A stretch of 35,919 bases of DNA from a bacterium (GTDB taxonomy: Bacteria > Patescibacteriota > Patescibacteriia > Patescibacteriales > GWC2-42-12), in assembly GCA_030649205.1 (NCBI GenBank), contig JAUSGE010000046.1, positions 1 through 35,919 of the forward strand. The letters are read 5' to 3'. The notes beneath the pieces were generated by a model. The model was not told the DNA's origin. It was given only the letters and a program-made list of their open reading frames with translations, and did no database searches. This document shows, in pieces, positions 1,909 through 10,768 of this stretch. The position numbers and the translations under genes are program-made. Position 1 is the stretch's first letter. Every line of letters begins with the position of its first letter.

Positions 1909-1948
1909 CCTGGATGCGAGTAAATTCAAGAATTAATCCTTATATTTT

Positions 1949-2641
1949 TTACCAATTTTTATTTTTCAAACCTTCTTCGGCCGCGGCCACTTGCGCTTCC
2001 TGCTTGGAAGTGCCTTTGCCTTGAGAAATTAACTCGTCATGCAAATACAGCCCAACCACGAACTCCTTGGCATGATCAGGTCCGGACTCGCTTAAAACTT
2101 TATAGTGCGGCGTGATGCCGGAAGTTTCCTGGGATTTTTCCTGAAATTTTGATTTAGGATCAAGATAAAGCTTATTCTTCAAAATGTTGTCCAATTTGGA
2201 CAAAATGAAAGCTTTAACAAACTTTTTGGCCGGCTTAATGCCCTGATCCAGATAAATCGCGCCAATCACCGCTTCCATGGCGTTGGCTAAAATGTATTGC
2301 CGCGCCTTGGAATTTTTATCCTTGGATTCGCCCTTGGACAAATACAAATATTTCTCCAAACCCAGCTCATTGGCCACTTCGGCCAGCATCCGGTAATTCA
2401 CCAAGCTGGCGCGCCAGTTAGTCAGGTCGCCTTCCGGCGTGTCCATAAATTCATGGAATAAAATTTCGGTCACGATAATTTCCAAAACCGCGTCGCCCAA
2501 AAATTCCAAACGCTCATTATGATGCAGTTCAAAATCAGGGTGCTCGTTTAAATAAGAGCGGTGCACCACTGACTGCTTAAGCAGATCGGGGTTCTTAAAT
2601 TTTATGTCTAGAATTTCTTCCAGTTTGGCAAAGTCTTTCAT
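1949..2641 (-). CDS. rnc: Ribonuclease III
   Basis: [19 protein letters not shown] signature, C-terminal dsRNA-binding domain. Confidence 0.97.
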
Positions 2642-3135
2642 TGAGATAAATTATCAGCCGCCGCTTCTACGGCCGGCCCGCCTAGACTCGGCGAGGCCGA
2701 CTGCTCGGTTTTTTTAATGGAACCGGCCACATCTTTATAGATCGCGCCTAGCACGCCATTGACGAATTTGCCGGATGATTCGCCGCCGAAAGTTTTGGCG
2801 ATTTCAATGGCTTCGTTAATCGCGACCTTGGCCGGAATGTCTTTATTAAAGACCAGTTCATAAACCCCGATGCGCAGGACGTTGCGGTCAACGATGGTAA
2901 TCTGATCCAGCGGCCATTCAGTGGCGTACCGGCTGATATAGCGGTCAATTTCTGCCAGATTATCCGTTACGCCATTGATGATGGATTTAACAAAGCCATG
3001 GTCATTGAATTTGGGCGCGAACTGCCTAAAATTCAGCTCAATCAGCTTATTCAAATTTTGCGCTTGCTTGCCGTTAAAATCCCAGGAGAACAAGGTCTGC
3101 ATGGCGATAGTTCTGGCCAGATGTCGGTTGGACAT
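2638..3135 (-). CDS. nusB: Transcription antitermination factor NusB
   Basis: [25 protein letters not shown]-like and [26 protein letters not shown] motifs. Confidence 0.95.
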
Positions 3136-3150
3136 AAACTTATTTTATCA

Positions 3151-3205
3151 ATCAGATAAAATTTTATGGCCGTAGAGCTTTGCTCGCTATAAAATTTTAT
3201 CTGAT
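3151..3205. other. Hairpin with a perfect 17-bp stem between rpmF and nusB
   Basis: atcagataaaattttat (3151-3167) is the reverse complement of ataaaattttatctgat (3189-3205); 21-nt loop. Confidence 0.9.
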
Positions 3206-3259
3206 ACTATATAATTTTTGAAAGCATTGAAAACTTTTTCTAAAAAAGTTGTCAAAGGT

Positions 3260-3478
3260 TTATTTCTTTTCTTTTTTTACTTTAGATTTAATCTTAAGGA
3301 CCTGTCTGCCTTTATAAGTGCCGCAGAAACCGCAGGCCGTATGCGGCAAAACCGCTTGGCCGCATTTGGGGCAAGAATTTAATTTAACTTTTTTTAAAGC
3401 CTGATGCGAGCGGCCGCGGCGGGCTTCGCTTCTGGATCGGCGTTTAGCTGGTACGGACATAGAAAATTTAAAAATCAA
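3260..3478 (-). CDS. rpmF: 50S ribosomal protein L32
   Basis: VPAKRRSRSEARRGRSHQAL and zinc-ribbon CPKCGQAVLPHTACGFCGTYKGRQVL. Confidence 0.96.
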   Translation of the reverse strand: MIFKFSMSVPAKRRSRSEARRGRSHQALKKVKLNSCPKCGQAVLPHTACGFCGTYKGRQVLKIKSKVKKEKK

Positions 3479-3559
3479 AAATCAAAATGCAAAATTTTAT
3501 TAAATAAATAAAAATAAGCCTGAATTTATGATTTATGGTTATTTATTAAAATTAACTTT

Positions 3560-3589
3560 ATTATAACTTAAAAAACTTGCTAAAGTCAA
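3560..3589 (-). promoter_or_regulatory. Sigma70-type promoter for rpmF-nusB-rnc (TTGACT-N18-TATAAT)
   Basis: Reverse strand TTGACT (3584-3589), 18-nt spacer, TATAAT (3560-3565). Confidence 0.7.
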
Positions 3590-3591
3590 GA

Positions 3592-4617
3592 TTAAACAAT
3601 CAGCTTGTCCTGCCCGCTCTTTTTCCGGCCCAGATGCGCGTAGGCCGTGTCCGTGGCCACGCGTCCGCGCGGCGTGCGGTCCAAAAAGCCGAGCTGCATC
3701 AGATATGGCTCATAGACTTCTTCCACCGTGGCGATATCTTCGGCCGTGGACGCGGCAATGGCCGACAGCCCGACCGGGCCGCCGTTAAACTTATCAATAA
3801 TCACTTCCAAAATTTTCCGATCCACCCAGTCCAAGCCCAGCTCGTCCACTTCCAAGAGGCTGAAAGCCCGCCGGCAATAATCCAGATTAATAGCGCCGTC
3901 GCCTTCCACCTGGCAGTAATCGCGCACCCGCTTTAATAGCCGATTGGCCACGCGCGGCGTGCGGCGGGAACGTTTGGCAATCTCCTCGGCCGGCTCGGCC
4001 GGCAAGGACAGGCTTAAAATTTTGGCGCTGCGCTCAATTATTTTTTTGATGTCTTGATCCTGATAAAAATCCAGATGATAGGTCATGCCGAAGCGGTCGC
4101 GCAAGGGCGAGGACAGCAAACTGATTTTGGTGGTGGCGCCGATGATGGTAAAGCGCGGCAAATCAAGGCGCAGAGTCCGGGCCGACGGCCCTTTACCGAT
4201 GATGATATCCAGAGCGTAATCTTCCATAGCCGGGTATAATATTTCCTCAATGGTTTTATTTAGCCGGTGGATTTCGTCAATAAATAAAATGTCACCGGCG
4301 TTTAAGTTGGTTAAAATCGCGGCCAGGTCGCCGGATTTTTCAATGGCCGGACCCGAAGTAATCCTGATGTTGGCGGCTAACTCATTAGCAATAACGTGCG
4401 CCAGAGTGGTTTTGCCTAACCCGGGCGGGCCGTATAATAAAACATGCTCAATGGCTTCTTTTCTGCCTTGAGCCGCTCCCAAAAAAATCCTAAGATTTTT
4501 CTTAATATTATCCTGCCCCACGAAGTCGGCCAGCTTCTGCGGCCGCAGAGTTAAATCCAGGGTTTTGTCGTCGCCCGCCTCCTCCGGCGCGATCAAGCGT
4601 TCGTTTATATCGGTCAT
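3592..4617 (-). CDS. ruvB: Holliday junction branch migration helicase RuvB
   Basis: [65 protein letters not shown]. Confidence 0.97.
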
Positions 4618-4682: not shown

Positions 4683-5078
4683 TTATTTATTTAAATAAGT
4701 AATGGTAAACTGCAAAATCGCGGCGAATGATACCCAAAGCAAATAAGGAATCTGCGCATAAGCTATCCAGCGCGCCTGCGGCCAGATAACAGCTATCGCC
4801 CAGATTAGAGTGGCCAATATCAAGAGAATATCAATTGAGGCCAATAAGTTATTTTTGAGGCCGAACTGAATGGGCGTAAAAGCAAAATTAAAAATCAAAT
4901 TAAGAATAAACGGCAAAGCGATCATAAAAGTAATTTGTTTTTGCCAAGCCATTAAAAACACTTTGCCGAAAGAAATCGCGATCAGAACATAAAGAAACGT
5001 CCAGACCGGACCGAACAGCCAGGCCGGCGGCGACCACGAAGGCTTGATTAATTGCGAATACCAGTTGTAGGCGTTCAT
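4683..5078 (-). CDS. TspO/MBR family membrane protein
   Basis: KPSWSPPAWLFGPVWTFLYVLIAISFG, multi-TM, YLLWVSFAAILQF. Confidence 0.9.
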   Translation of the reverse strand: MNAYNWYSQLIKPSWSPPAWLFGPVWTFLYVLIAISFGKVFLMAWQKQITFMIALPFILNLIFNFAFTPIQFGLKNNLLASIDILLILATLIWAIAVIWPQARWIAYAQIPYLLWVSFAAILQFTITYLNK

Positions 5079-5163
5079 ATGTTGGTTATTTATTATATTA
5101 GATACTACAATTATATCATTTTCAAATAAACCAACGCGACTAACTCGTCGGCTCTAGTATTTA

Positions 5164-6549
5164 TTAATTGTTGTCTCCTTTCTCTATTATTTCCTCAACC
5201 TTCTTTTTTGCCTCATCCGATAATTCTTTGGCCTTTTTTCTAGCTTCGTGAGATTTAATCACTAAATCAGATATTTTTTGCTGAATTTCTTTTGATAAAA
5301 TCGGAACTTTAAATTTTCTAAGATTTTTTGCATAAATATATGGTTGCGCCAATCCACTTTTATTCATTTCGGCTTGCATTCTTCCGACGGATGAATTTAA
5401 AGCAAAGCCTAAATATACTGGATTTATTTTATTCTTATCCGCTCTAATTAAATTTATAAAACTTCCTATTGCAATATTTTCTTCTTCTAAATAATTATGG
5501 CAAAAACCAAGATTAGCTCCGACAGAATAATACAAAATGTCATATTTTCTTATCAGATAAATTTTATTTTTTTCGTCATTAAAAAATTCTTTCGAGACTC
5601 GTGGCTCATCCGGATCGGTTAGAAATGAATAATCAATAACCTTGTCTTTTATCCACTTCTGAGAAAAAAATTTAATTTTTCCATCTACGGAATATGGCGG
5701 TTGATTTCCGTTATTTATAAAAGAAGTTATATTTTCTAAAAAATCCCAACCATTCTTATAGTTTTCAATTTTTTTTATTATATATTTATATTTGGAATGG
5801 AAATATTCAGCATCAATACGATTAGCATTTTTTACCTCTGACAAATTAACGACAGAAAATAAACTTTTGTCTGTTTCAAAATCTTTTAGTCCCAATTCTT
5901 CCAAAAGAAAACTTTCAGCTTGCTGGTATAATTTCTCTGATCGTTGGAAACTCTCCCACGAATCATTGGATAACTTTTCAATTTTCTTTTGGACATTCAT
6001 TGGCAAAATGGCAATTTTCATTTGTTTTAATTCCTCCGCGTTAACATTGGCCTGATTTACCGCTCGCCGTAAAAATTTTTTTATCTGCCTTAAACCATAT
6101 TTTGAATTTAAAAAAATATTCAGGTAGTCCGGCAAAATTTCCCCATATTCTTTGGTTTGTAATCTAATAAGATAAGATGCAAACGTTGATTTAATATCTA
6201 ACTTAAATATTCCAGTTCTGCCGACGAATTCTTCCGAGTTAACGCGATTGAATAAAACATCATTTTTTTCCAACTTAAAATTATCAAATATTTTATCGGA
6301 AATATCCGCGAATCTGACCCGGTCATTAAATAAAAAGGCGTCGTCAATGTTGTTCATCTTAAACATCGGGTAGCCTTTTTTCTCGTCGTTCATATCTAGA
6401 GACAATCCGTATTGGCATTTTTTTAAAATTTCGCTGATCGGTTTCCAGTTTCCTTTAGTAAAATCAATAAAATACTCCGGCTGATAATATTCGGCATCCA
6501 GCCGCAGAGCGCCTTCAAGTTGAGATTTTTGGATGATAGAATAGGCCAT
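5164..6549 (-). CDS. Restriction-modification specificity subunit (HsdS-like, two TRDs)
   Basis: Two repeated target-recognition halves (RLDAEYYQPEY... / RIDAEYFHSKY...) each followed by a helical spacer (QKKIEKL..., QQKISDL...). Confidence 0.88.
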   Translation of the reverse strand: MAYSIIQKSQLEGALRLDAEYYQPEYFIDFTKGNWKPISEILKKCQYGLSLDMNDEKKGYPMFKMNNIDDAFLFNDRVRFADISDKIFDNFKLEKNDVLFNRVNSEEFVGRTGIFKLDIKSTFASYLIRLQTKEYGEILPDYLNIFLNSKYGLRQIKKFLRRAVNQANVNAEELKQMKIAILPMNVQKKIEKLSNDSWESFQRSEKLYQQAESFLLEELGLKDFETDKSLFSVVNLSEVKNANRIDAEYFHSKYKYIIKKIENYKNGWDFLENITSFINNGNQPPYSVDGKIKFFSQKWIKDKVIDYSFLTDPDEPRVSKEFFNDEKNKIYLIRKYDILYYSVGANLGFCHNYLEEENIAIGSFINLIRADKNKINPVYLGFALNSSVGRMQAEMNKSGLAQPYIYAKNLRKFKVPILSKEIQQKISDLVIKSHEARKKAKELSDEAKKKVEEIIEKGDNN

Positions 6550-6550
6550 A

Positions 6551-7273
6551 TTATCTTGATTCTGACATAATAATACTCATTTTTTCTGTTTCTAAAGTTT
6601 TTTCTATAAAATCTTTCAACACATCAAAATGCAAAAAATCAACGCAAAAATACTGTGATGTAAATGCATTTTCTTCACGCCACCTATACCAATAATCAAA
6701 GCCAAAAATAGAGTGTTTGACGGATTGTTTATTATTTAAATCGTTGACATTTTCTATTTCATAAATTCCGCTGACGCCGCCATAAACAACCAATGGATAA
6801 TATATCCCCCTTATACCTTGTGCATATTTGAAAAAAAGTAATGATTTAGCAGCTTGAGTAAATGCTAAAAAAACGTCACTATTACCAGAAGAATCATACA
6901 ATTTAGATATTTTATCTCTAACAAGATAGTGATGAACAGAATTAGTTCGTGTGAAAATACCGTCCTGATAAATACTATTTAATATGATCGCCTTTTTGCT
7001 CTTATCTTTATCATTACGGTGCAATCTGAATGCAATCTCATTTTTAAAGTATTTACATTCTATAAATAAAAAAATGAAAAAATTATTACCAGAAAAATTA
7101 ATATCAACTCTTTTTTTTGCAACAATATCAATTTCTCGAGGTTTCCCCGTTGTATCATCATAATAATAAGAGCTTAACTCAACATCCCACTTTAAACTCT
7201 CCAATAATTCTACAACTTTAATGTGTAAATTATTGCCACTCTTTTCAATTATTTTTTCTAGATTTTTTTCCAT
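6551..7273 (-). CDS. Putative PD-(D/E)XK nuclease-like protein inside the RM operon
   Basis: REIDIVAKK...FFIFLFIECKYFK resembles a D-x(n)-E-x-K restriction-endonuclease core; located between the methylase and S genes. Confidence 0.5.
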   Translation of the reverse strand: MEKNLEKIIEKSGNNLHIKVVELLESLKWDVELSSYYYDDTTGKPREIDIVAKKRVDINFSGNNFFIFLFIECKYFKNEIAFRLHRNDKDKSKKAIILNSIYQDGIFTRTNSVHHYLVRDKISKLYDSSGNSDVFLAFTQAAKSLLFFKYAQGIRGIYYPLVVYGGVSGIYEIENVNDLNNKQSVKHSIFGFDYWYRWREENAFTSQYFCVDFLHFDVLKDFIEKTLETEKMSIIMSESR

Positions 7274-7276
7274 AAT

Positions 7277-9205
7277 TTAAAAATTAACCTTTTGATCATT
7301 CGCGAACTTCCCAAACTCCTCCGCAATCTCGTCTAAATCATGATCAATAATTTTCTTCCCCTCCATATTAAACATAACATTGCCGTCTTTGTCTTTTCTA
7401 TAAATATATTCTCCCGACGAATCTTTTCCGCCTTTTTTTGAAACCGCCATGAAAATTTGATAGTCTTTGGGCGCTTCCTCGCCTTCTCTGAATTTCTGTA
7501 AAAACATAACAGATGTTTTTGCACCGGTGTGCGGCTTAAAAGTATTGCCGTGCAGGCCGACAACCGCCAACAGCCTGGCCTTATTTAAAATAAATTTTCT
7601 TACATATTCCATCTGCGTATTATTCAAAACTCCCTGCGGCAAAACTATAGCCATGCGCCCGCCAGGTTTTAAAAAATTTAAATCTCTTTCAATAAAAAGA
7701 ACATCGCGCGAAACTTTATTTTGATGCTTTGAAGTTTTTTCAAAATCTTTATTCCACTTAAAACCGAGGTCATACTTATTAAGCAGGATTCCTTTAATCT
7801 CTCCGGCAAAGGGTGGATTGGTTAAGACAATATCAAAATTAAAATCGCTCATTTTTTCCTGATTACGCCTATTTTCTTCGCTGTCTTTAAATGTCCTTAA
7901 AAACGGGCGAAAGCGCGTTCTGGTTTCTTCATTCCAAATTTCCGAGTCAAGAGAATTGGCGTAAGTTACATTAGTCTTTCCGTCTCCGGCTATTAGCATC
8001 ATAGCTTTACCGATTTTTACCGAGCGCGGGTCAAAATCAATGCCAAAAAGATGCTTTTCCGCATAGTCTTTTTGCTTTACGTCGGTACTGCTGCCGTATT
8101 TTTCTTTGGTCAGTTCATTTTGCCACACATATTGCATGGCATGGAGTAAAAAACCGCAGCTTCCGGCCGCCGAATCAATAATAAAATCTTTTGAAGCCGG
8201 GGCTAACATTTTTACCGCCATATCAATAACGTGCCGCGGGGTAAAGTACTGACCCTTTTCACCCTTCGCGTCCAAATTAATAAGATATTCAAAAGCGTCG
8301 TCAATAATCTGGAGATTTGAGCCGAAGAGCCTATGCTTTTGCAGGAGCGAAACCGCCGGCACGACAACATTCTCCGGTATTTCTATTTCGTCATTGGCTT
8401 TAAAAACATCGCGCCATTGGCTTTTGGCATCTTCAAACAGGCGCGAAAGATTATTTAGATTTTCCTTATTCGTCGCTCCGGCGATTATCCTAAATCGCCT
8501 GTTTTCATTTCTGGGAGTTTCAATTTCATCATAAAGTTTCGCGTAAATCAGTTTAAATATTTCATCAAAAGAATCAACTCCGCAATTGGCTAAAACGACT
8601 TCCTGCAAATCATAAATCAGCTGTTTTAAATTTAAAATTTCGTCCAGATCTTCGTAAGCAATCTTCTTGGAGCGTACATCCTCCACGGTTTCATTAAATT
8701 TTGGAATCTCTATAAGATCTTCAAAAAGGTTCGGATCGGTTCTTAAAATATTATTTTGAATTTTCCCATCAGTTAAAACCAATATCGGCGCTCCGGTGGC
8801 GTTGGCATAACTTTTTAGCTGTCCCAATCCGTCTTTAACGTCAGGCTTTTTCACTTCAACCATTAAATACGGAGTTTTTCCATCATCGCGATAAATAACA
8901 ATATCAGCCCTCTTTTTCCCTACCTCCCTGCCGAATTGCACATCAACTTCAACATCAATCCGATCAAGCGGATATTTATAAAAATTGATCAATTTATAAA
9001 CCATTAATTGGCGAATGATTTCTTCCGGCTTGGCGACTAAATTTTTACTTCTCTTTAAGCATTGTAAATAATATTTCCCGTCTTTTTCTGAAAAATCCAA
9101 AACCTGCTCCGGGCTTATTTCCTCAAATACGGATAACCCGTATTGCATATCGGTATTCTTAAATATTTTACCAATAATTTCACTGGCTAATTTTTGATTT
9201 GCCAT
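7277..9205 (-). CDS. Restriction-modification fusion: N-terminal PD-(D/E)XK (HsdR_N-like) plus N6-adenine methyltransferase (HsdM-like)
   Basis: N-term VDVQFGREVGKKRADIVIYRDDGKTPYLMVEVKKPD; methylase motifs DSAAGSCGFLLHAM and FDIVLTNPPFAG. Confidence 0.88.
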   Translation of the reverse strand: MANQKLASEIIGKIFKNTDMQYGLSVFEEISPEQVLDFSEKDGKYYLQCLKRSKNLVAKPEEIIRQLMVYKLINFYKYPLDRIDVEVDVQFGREVGKKRADIVIYRDDGKTPYLMVEVKKPDVKDGLGQLKSYANATGAPILVLTDGKIQNNILRTDPNLFEDLIEIPKFNETVEDVRSKKIAYEDLDEILNLKQLIYDLQEVVLANCGVDSFDEIFKLIYAKLYDEIETPRNENRRFRIIAGATNKENLNNLSRLFEDAKSQWRDVFKANDEIEIPENVVVPAVSLLQKHRLFGSNLQIIDDAFEYLINLDAKGEKGQYFTPRHVIDMAVKMLAPASKDFIIDSAAGSCGFLLHAMQYVWQNELTKEKYGSSTDVKQKDYAEKHLFGIDFDPRSVKIGKAMMLIAGDGKTNVTYANSLDSEIWNEETRTRFRPFLRTFKDSEENRRNQEKMSDFNFDIVLTNPPFAGEIKGILLNKYDLGFKWNKDFEKTSKHQNKVSRDVLFIERDLNFLKPGGRMAIVLPQGVLNNTQMEYVRKFILNKARLLAVVGLHGNTFKPHTGAKTSVMFLQKFREGEEAPKDYQIFMAVSKKGGKDSSGEYIYRKDKDGNVMFNMEGKKIIDHDLDEIAEEFGKFANDQKVNF

Positions 9206-9209
9206 ATTT

Positions 9210-9851
9210 TTATTTTACTTTACTTAGATTTAAAATAACTTTTCCATCAAAAAATACTTCGCCGGGAATAATTATAATATTTTTATAATTCGGATTTTCC
9301 GGCTTAAGATATCTTTTACCGCCGTCAGCAACGAATCTTTTTACAGTAGTACCTTGATCAGTTCTCGCCAGCACAATATCACCGCTTTTAAACTCTTTAG
9401 CCTTTTTTACTAAAAGCATATCGCCATTATCAATGCCGGCATTTGTCATTGAATCTCCATAAACTTTTACGACAAACAGTTGTTCATTTGATTGATTAAT
9501 TTTTTCGTCCTTAACTATCTGTCCCGGAAGAGGCATCCAGGTAAAAGAAGTTTCTTCAAGCGTCTCAATAAAAGGGCCTGCCGCTGTTCCGCCAACGACA
9601 GGCGCTAACTGATCTTTATTTAATATTTTATAACCTAAAGGTAAAATTGTTATGCCTCTAGCCTGGCCTTCTGACCGCACAATATACCCCTTAACCGTAA
9701 GCGCATCCAAATAATTTAATACTGCTTGGTTGGAAACTACATCCAATTCGTTTTTTAAATCAGCCAAAGTGGGAGGGAAACCGGTTGATTCTATATTATT
9801 ATATATTATTTCCAATACTTTTTTTTGCTTTGGAGTAATATTTTTTATCAT
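9210..9851 (-). CDS. LexA-like S24 family transcriptional repressor
   Basis: LexA-type winged helix (TPKQKKVLEIIYNNIESTGFPPTLADLK), Ala-Gly cleavage site GGTAAGPF, catalytic YGDSM and GTTVKRF. Confidence 0.9.
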   Translation of the reverse strand: MIKNITPKQKKVLEIIYNNIESTGFPPTLADLKNELDVVSNQAVLNYLDALTVKGYIVRSEGQARGITILPLGYKILNKDQLAPVVGGTAAGPFIETLEETSFTWMPLPGQIVKDEKINQSNEQLFVVKVYGDSMTNAGIDNGDMLLVKKAKEFKSGDIVLARTDQGTTVKRFVADGGKRYLKPENPNYKNIIIIPGEVFFDGKVILNLSKVK

Positions 9852-9870
9852 ATATTTATATTATATATGA
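9848..9870. promoter_or_regulatory. Candidate operator dyad TCATATAT-N7-ATATATGA over the lexA-like -10, TSS and start codon
   Basis: Perfect 8-bp arms at 9848-9855 and 9863-9870. Confidence 0.5.
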
Positions 9871-9888
9871 CCAAAATATGACTGTCAA
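9860..9888 (-). promoter_or_regulatory. Sigma70-type promoter TTGACA-N17-TATAAT for the lexA-like/RM operon
   Basis: Reverse strand TTGACA (9883-9888), 17-nt spacer, TATAAT (9860-9865); start codon begins at 9851. Confidence 0.85.
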
Positions 9889-9897
9889 ATAATAAAA

Positions 9898-9917
9898 AAT
9901 GGCTTTTTTAAGCCATT
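9898..9917 (-). terminator. Rho-independent terminator of the DnaQ-family gene
   Basis: AATGGCTT-N4-AAGCCATT followed by a T-rich tract on the minus strand. Confidence 0.7.
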
Positions 9918-9970
9918 ATAAAAATAGTTATCCACAGTTTTATTGAGAGAAAAAATGATTATTAACTGAC

Positions 9971-10768
9971 TTACGCCTTTTTCGGCAACTCCCCGTTTAG
10001 GGCATTTTTGATGATGTCCTTGGTCTCCTGGGAAAAATCAGCGGACATAATCCACCGCAAAAAGCCCGGGTCTTGCTTAACCACTTCGGCTAGCGGCTGG
10101 CCTTTGTATTTGGAAAAAGAAAAATGCGCCTGGCCGTTGCGCCAAAAAAATTTCCGCTCATTGTCAACGTAGCGGCCGTCGGACGCGTGATGAATTTTAT
10201 AAATATAATCCCAATCCCTGATTTCGCTGTATTGATCAAGCTGCTGGCCTAAAATTTCCGCGGTCGCTTCCACGTCTCCCAGAGCGCTGTGCGCCTCCTC
10301 ATGGTCTTTGCCGCAATAAAATTTATAAGCCGCGGACAAAGTGCGCGGCTCCATGTGGTGGTAAATCGTTTTGGAGTCAATGATTTTCGCGGCCGCGTAA
10401 TCAAAGCCCATGCCGACGCGCAAAAACTCGCGCCTAAGCATGGGCAAATCAAAATTCGCAATGTTAAAACCGCCGTAATAGCAATCATTAAAAATCGCCC
10501 AAAAATCCTGGGCTTTTTCCCTGAAAGTCGGCTGGTCTTTAACCTGTTCATCCGTAATGCCGTGCAGTTCCGTTACTTCGGCCGGAATGCCCATTTCCGG
10601 ATTTAAAAAAACATCCCCCTTGCTAGCCACGCCGTTAGGCATGATTTTTAAATAAGCAATCTCTATTATCCTGTCCAAAGAAACCGACAAGCCGGTTGAC
10701 TCAATGTCAAAAATCACCAGCGGCTTGTCCAGCTTGATCAGCTTGGTTATTTTATTGTCTTTAATCAT
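9971..10768 (-). CDS. DnaQ-like 3'-5' exonuclease (DEDD family)
   Basis: [52 protein letters not shown]. Confidence 0.92.

Follow-up and report, generated by a model that had tools for sequence, protein, structure and literature searches.

A Type IIB-like restriction-modification operon of Patescibacteria with a dedicated LexA-type repressor and a slot for exchangeable cargo

A four-gene operon from a member of the Patescibacteriota encodes an enzyme that, judged from sequence, is a Type IIB-like restriction-modification (RM) enzyme, built like known Type IIB enzymes and provided with its own LexA and a slot for cargo. We propose that this enzyme acts as an (RM)2S assembly that is repressed by its LexA, induced by DNA damage and accompanied by an exchangeable effector, and we give this whole model about two chances in three of being right. 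The stretch analysed, hereafter the window, is contig 22, 35,919 nucleotides long, of a 1.22 Mb genome in 50 contigs that is 97.7% complete. The four ORFs of the operon all lie on the minus strand in the order lexA, RM, a 240-aa cargo ORF and S (5' to 3'), separated by 4, 3 and 1 nt. A first-pass annotation of this DNA had described the four minus-strand ORFs at these coordinates, 1-4 nt apart, and had placed them under an S24 regulator of LexA type encoded in the operon itself; both descriptions hold. The genes, and the two domains of the RM subunit, are as follows.

9210..9851, minus strand: LexA-type repressor gene, 213 aa, with Pfam LexA_DNA_bind and Peptidase_S24
7277..9205, minus strand: RM fusion subunit, 642 aa, assigned from Pfam, PDB relatives and AlphaFold/Foldseek
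8702..9028, minus strand: HSDR_N_2 / PD-(D/E)XK nuclease domain of RM, residues 60-168, with E86, D101, E117 and K119, plus Q129
7421..8308, minus strand: gamma-class N6-adenine methyltransferase domain of RM (N6_Mtase), residues 300-595, with motif IV NPPF at 463-466
6551..7273, minus strand: cargo gene of the variable slot, encoding a 240-aa PD-(D/E)XK-like protein, with homologues in the same slot of L091 and L093
5164..6549, minus strand: two-TRD S subunit, 461 aa, with two stretches matching Pfam Methylase_S

The G+C content of this island (0.28-0.385) is below that of the flanking genes (0.41-0.47) and of the window (0.437), which suggests horizontal acquisition.

The RM subunit has its nearest solved relative in RM.BsaXI, a Type IIB enzyme (phmmer E 6.8e-25; profile E 1.5e-49). 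The AlphaFold model of RM (pLDDT 81.5) also finds BsaXI as its top Foldseek match (E 8.8e-26), ahead of Type I M subunits; with a modest overall TM-score (0.45-0.47 relative to the query), the placement of domains may differ between the two proteins. In the profile alignment, E86, D101, E117 and K119 of RM correspond to E73, D90, E105 and K107 of BsaXI, with the residue numbers counted along the printed alignment. In BsaXI, alanine at any one of these four positions abolishes cleavage (PMC11997821). The same four residues are invariant in 20/20 RM homologues, and this invariance, together with the alignment to residues essential in BsaXI, argues strongly that nuclease activity of RM is under selection. 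The HsdR_N-like PD-(D/E)XK core that the first-pass annotation had placed at the N-terminus of the methylase is therefore borne out by the domain match and its complete set of catalytic residues; the loss of catalytic geometry that could have spoken against it did not materialise.

No HsdR motor-nuclease subunit is encoded in the operon, and no ORF of the window resembles an HsdR-type translocase, in agreement with the earlier statement that a translocase is missing there. One could still suppose a Type I system in disguise, in which the 642-aa protein is a methyltransferase only and an HsdR from elsewhere in the genome cuts in trans. Indeed, PADLOC labels RM a Type I methyltransferase (MTase_I PDLC03034, near full-length, 598 bits), and the whole-genome search for hsdR proposed in the first-pass annotation returned two such genes; the label, however, is generic and says nothing of a restriction-competent nuclease fusion. 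Moreover, both hsdR genes are on one contig, C14, and both sit among other Type I genes, so that the claim of an HsdR-free system was not refuted by the search. One C14 cluster is a complete M-S-R; the start of C14 holds S and R, and C34 has a solitary M close to its end, giving two other Type I M genes, one on each contig (these Type I loci are L007-L009). The C14 S-R pair and the C34 M are probably one second Type I system split at contig ends. A match to SWI2_SNF2 is lacking in 11 of the 20 operon-bearing genomes, eight of these being at least 95% complete, in a survey with this one model, which may miss rarer HsdR types or those seen by other helicase models. Considering these 11 genomes and the embedding of the hsdR genes among other Type I genes, the operon is probably HsdR-independent, and supply of HsdR in trans is disfavoured. 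As the nuclease residues are also kept in every RM, a disguised Type I system is very unlikely.

The S subunit consists of two tandem half-repeats, which cross-match in the comparison of loci, and S homologues are present in 20/20 intact operons. The BcgI/BsaXI-like Type IIB arrangement that had been suggested is supported: a nuclease and an adenine methyltransferase share one chain, the PD-(D/E)XK residues are intact, a two-TRD S is separate and the operon is free of HsdR. As in BcgI and BsaXI, an N-terminal PD-(D/E)XK domain, a helical connector and a gamma-class methyltransferase make up RM, and no translocase is present; the four catalytic residues are those given for BsaXI (PMC11997821). 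The proteins differ in size, the solved BsaXI chain having 916 aa and RM 642 aa. Unlike here, a LexA-type head gene or a cargo slot is not mentioned in the portions of the BcgI/BsaXI literature at hand (PMC11997821, PMC3874165). The M2S core of EcoKI-like Type I systems has a homologous methyltransferase domain and S subunit, but here the nuclease is fused to M, the operon has no HsdR motor and the genome often lacks one as well. The first-pass view of the operon as a candidate for an undescribed system thus goes too far as regards the Type IIB-like enzyme; it is the dedicated LexA lineage with its conserved operator, and the LexA-methyltransferase fusions, that look undescribed.

Another filing of the same proteins would make them relatives of MADS or BREX, that is, of a methylation-associated phage block without this nuclease, since RM matches the MAD2 model (303 bits) and S matches MAD5 (110 bits). 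These scores are far under the curated cut-offs of 720 and 400, the generic Type I methyltransferase model scores higher on RM, and no other mad or brx gene was seen within the window. The filing was rejected on its scores, and a relationship of this kind is extremely improbable.

The arrangement was followed through 380 genomes from throughout the phylum and 381 from the class, and the flanks of close homologues were then compared. Both RM and S are present at 20 loci, window included, and 14 of these have a same-strand LexA-type gene upstream. LexA and RM mostly overlap or stand a few bases apart; the spacing is 246 nt in L088 and 41 nt in L089, and in L093 a 118-aa ORF lies between the two. 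LexA is missing at the other six loci, of which L050 has an upstream HTH gene. The recurrence of the LexA-RM-S order in distant genomes indicates that the operon is more than a set of chance neighbours. Of the four-gene order that the first-pass annotation proposed to look for in relatives, this LexA-RM-S part is conserved, but the 240-aa ORF is not supported as a fixed fourth part.

Several other settings of this family were seen. A RadC-like gene replaces LexA upstream of RM in L046 and L053, and also in the truncated L054. In L088, a SMODS/CD-NTase-like gene and a Cap15-type receptor follow S (8508-10057, plus strand), so that CBASS-like genes adjoin the RM operon. The RM family occurs also on plasmids of Klebsiella, cyanobacteria and Bacteroides: on pAQ6 of Picosynechococcus PCC 7002 (L062), a single polypeptide (annotated 6977-10516) combines RM and S, as AloI-type enzymes do; on the Klebsiella plasmid (L063), RM and S occur without LexA, with two DUF262 genes further downstream; and on the Bacteroides plasmid (L066), the order is RM-S-kinase, MADS-like in outline.

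At least one gene lies between RM and S in 14 of the 20 operons, and these genes belong mostly to unrelated families. The contents of this RM-S slot are the following.

L043, L047: DUF3800 cargo
L044: DUF6119 cargo
L045, L091: NYN cargo
L046: Schlafen AlbA_2 cargo
L048: PemK cargo
L049: OLD-like AAA cargo
L053: AAA cargo
L051: RhuM cargo
L090: DUF4145 and a PD-(D/E)XK-like protein
L093, L094: cargo proteins without clear family
Window, with relatives in L091 and L093: 240-aa ORF

On this pattern, the RM-S slot is evidently a hypervariable site for swappable cargo, and the 240-aa ORF is one such cargo. Its protein carries the motif D49, E72-C73-K74, Q140, which is PD-(D/E)XK-like at motif level; six aligned members keep D49, E72, C73 and Q140, and K74 becomes Arg in L056 (ECR). 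No Pfam family covers it, sequence and profile searches returned no PDB relative, and searches of plasmid and viral sequences gave no relative either. AlphaFold gives a weak model for it (pLDDT 59), to which no PDB fold matches significantly; the restriction enzymes AspBHI and MspJI are among the insignificant hits. Tight operon spacing, the motif and the occurrence in the same slot of L091 and L093 would all suit an integral second endonuclease that is required for cleavage. However, in most operons the gene is missing or unrelated genes stand in its place, its G+C of 0.28 is below the 0.385 of RM, and homologues occur outside RM operons, in L042/L055 (apparently one G210 locus) and L056, which makes a required second endonuclease improbable. 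The earlier label of an extra PD-(D/E)XK ORF thus keeps its motif, but a standing as fixed fourth component is not supported, given the hypervariable slot and the relatives outside such operons. PrrC of EcoprrI offers a precedent, being likewise an unrelated effector-like gene carried within a restriction operon (PMC3874165, PMC12707154). In contrast to PrrC, the host enzyme here is Type IIB-like, the cargo families differ by genome and a guarding role of the cargo is putative.

The head gene of the operon has the parts of an autocleaving LexA / S24 repressor. It scores 139.5 bits against an NCBIfam LexA cut-off of 110.95, and has a winged-HTH with the recognition segment SNQAVLNYL, an S24 peptidase with the Ala-Gly cleavage site GTAAGPF, the Ser in GDSM and the Lys in TTVK, with the domain order, cleavage site and Ser-Lys pair shared with such repressors. 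In a tree of 30 LexAs, 12 operon LexAs form one clade with support of 100/100, and the chromosomal LexAs fall mostly in a different clade; the LexAs of L088 and L089 make a third group. The operon-LexA clade retains the Ser of GDSM and the catalytic Lys, and most of its members the Ala-Gly site as well, with a deviating neighbourhood in L090 (SCGP) and L094 (AGGP). In the RM tree, 11 of the 12 RMs from the clade-LexA operons group together, with L046, and the RM of the window falls beside those of L088 and L089 (67% identical). The window operon thus looks recombinant, with RM and regulator from different lines; as its closest RM relatives carry a LexA of another clade, the regulator appears exchangeable.

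The lexA gene is preceded by a consensus promoter, with these elements.

9898..9917, minus strand: terminator-like hairpin, located between the exonuclease gene upstream and the promoter of the operon
9860..9888, minus strand: operon promoter, TTGACA (9888-9883), a 17-nt spacer and TATAAT (9865-9860)
9868..9882, minus strand: predicted LexA operator in the spacer, with the right half-site TGGTCA (9873-9868) separated from the -10 box by two bases

The promoter matches the consensus at 12/12 positions and is the sole such promoter in 5000-10100, and we infer that the hairpin separates the operon from the exonuclease gene. The half-site TRGTCR adjoins the -10 box of the lexA-RM promoter in 12/12 clade operons, ten by the strict pattern and two with one extra spacer base. 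It is absent upstream of 11 control genes, and shuffled controls gave a mean of 0.046 and a maximum of 2 of 12, an optimistic figure as the pattern was derived from the same 12 sequences. The genome-wide count of the full palindrome GACYAWWTRGTC is a more independent check than the shuffles. In six relatives it occurs at 1-2 places per genome, at the operon promoter in five: G116, G015 and G246 have a single place, which is the operon promoter, and G093 and G026 have two, one of which is the operon promoter. It stands at the operon promoter in G385 as well; in G167 it is not at the operon, and it occurs nowhere in the window genome. The window operator has a degenerate left half and forms no perfect palindrome; a good right half with a poor left half is found in L049, L091, L092, L093 and L094 too.

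These distributions bear on whether the regulator is simply the SOS LexA of the host that chances to adjoin an RM gene, as its passing of the NCBIfam cut-off would allow. The genome has three LexA-like genes, and the two others score higher than that of the window; the operon LexAs are a separate clade, and their adjacency to RM is conserved in 12 operons. A global SOS regulator would have its operator upstream of several SOS genes, but in five genomes the palindrome is confined to the operon promoter and no more than one further site. The number of LexA copies, the phylogeny and the operator distribution thus led us to reject the window LexA as the SOS LexA of the cell, an identity that is scarcely credible. 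It differs from other LexA / S24 repressors in having its own clade, its own operator and essentially one RM operon as target.

The main rival on the regulator is a homeostatic autorepressor in the manner of C proteins, which would be absent on entry of the operon, allowing rapid production of the enzyme, and later shut the promoter, its peptidase having no damage-sensing role. That the operator stands at the repressor's own promoter and at hardly any other genomic site is what an autorepressor predicts; this confinement fits damage-responsive control equally well. That most of the clade conserves the cleavage site together with Ser and Lys speaks against plain homeostasis, as do the recruitment of a different LexA, not a plain HTH protein, by two close operons, and the presence of recA, found in 15/16 of these operon-bearing genomes. 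We therefore consider homeostatic autorepression unlikely.

The damage-responsive model that we favour would work in the following way. RM and S would assemble as (RM)2S, with S reading a bipartite site through its two TRDs. Each RM would methylate an adenine of the site; at an unmethylated site, the N-terminal PD-(D/E)XK domains would cut the flanking DNA, presumably on both sides, with no ATP-driven translocation. Transcription would start from the consensus sigma-70 promoter, which the dedicated autocleavable LexA, bound between -35 and -10, would shut. RecA filaments on damaged DNA, arising at phage entry or from the enzyme's own cuts at under-methylated host sites, would cause LexA to cleave itself, thus inducing the operon. 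The third gene, an exchangeable cargo that here encodes a PD-(D/E)XK-like nuclease, would be co-expressed as a probable second-line effector. This has the logic of a feedback: cutting of under-methylated host sites would lead to LexA cleavage, more enzyme and restored methylation; at the same time, damage caused by phage would raise restriction. The LexA switch suggests, at the level of sequence, a defence that is turned up on DNA damage.

LexA domains were also found fused to methyltransferases. In the same genome, on contig C44 (L077), a full LexA is fused to an N6_N4_Mtase domain (507 aa; 2691-4214, minus strand), and a convergent 248-aa ORF without known family (1948-2694, plus strand) may be the endonuclease partner of this fusion. 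In G567 (L124; 1714-4380, minus strand), an 888-aa protein joins LexA to an Eco57I-type methyltransferase with a TaqI_C specificity domain, and in G674 (L125; 1-985, minus strand), a LexA-methyltransferase fusion is cut by the contig end. The LexA parts of these fusions form one supported branch (98/95) of the LexA tree, and thus modification enzymes may have come under LexA control on more than one occasion in the phylum. Twice in one genome (L129, L130), a LexA related to those of L088 and L089 lies upstream of Multi_ubiq, ThiF and DUF6527 genes, the Pfam search covering L129; ubiquitin-like operons may thus be a further kind that LexA heads.

Control of restriction-modification is known to run mostly through dedicated C proteins, autorepression by the methyltransferase or, in Type I systems, proteolytic restriction alleviation. 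We found no LexA or S24 control of RM in the literature searched, of which coverage was incomplete, nor in term look-ups in a 2025 review of restriction biology (PMC12707154). The testable novelty lies in the predicted damage-inducible control of restriction. More broadly, Patescibacteria may hold a lineage of damage-inducible restriction, comprising a Type IIB-like enzyme, a private RecA-responsive LexA and a plug-in effector slot, together with LexA-fused methyltransferases on a separate branch; we offer this wider reading tentatively, at somewhat less than even odds. An RM-dedicated LexA lineage whose operator can be written down makes the choice between damage-inducible and constitutive restriction directly testable, and the variable RM-S slot is where new effectors could be sought in a phylum with little-studied defences. 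If the model is true, restriction, modification and a second-line effector would be tuned jointly by the damage that comes from phage or from the enzyme itself.
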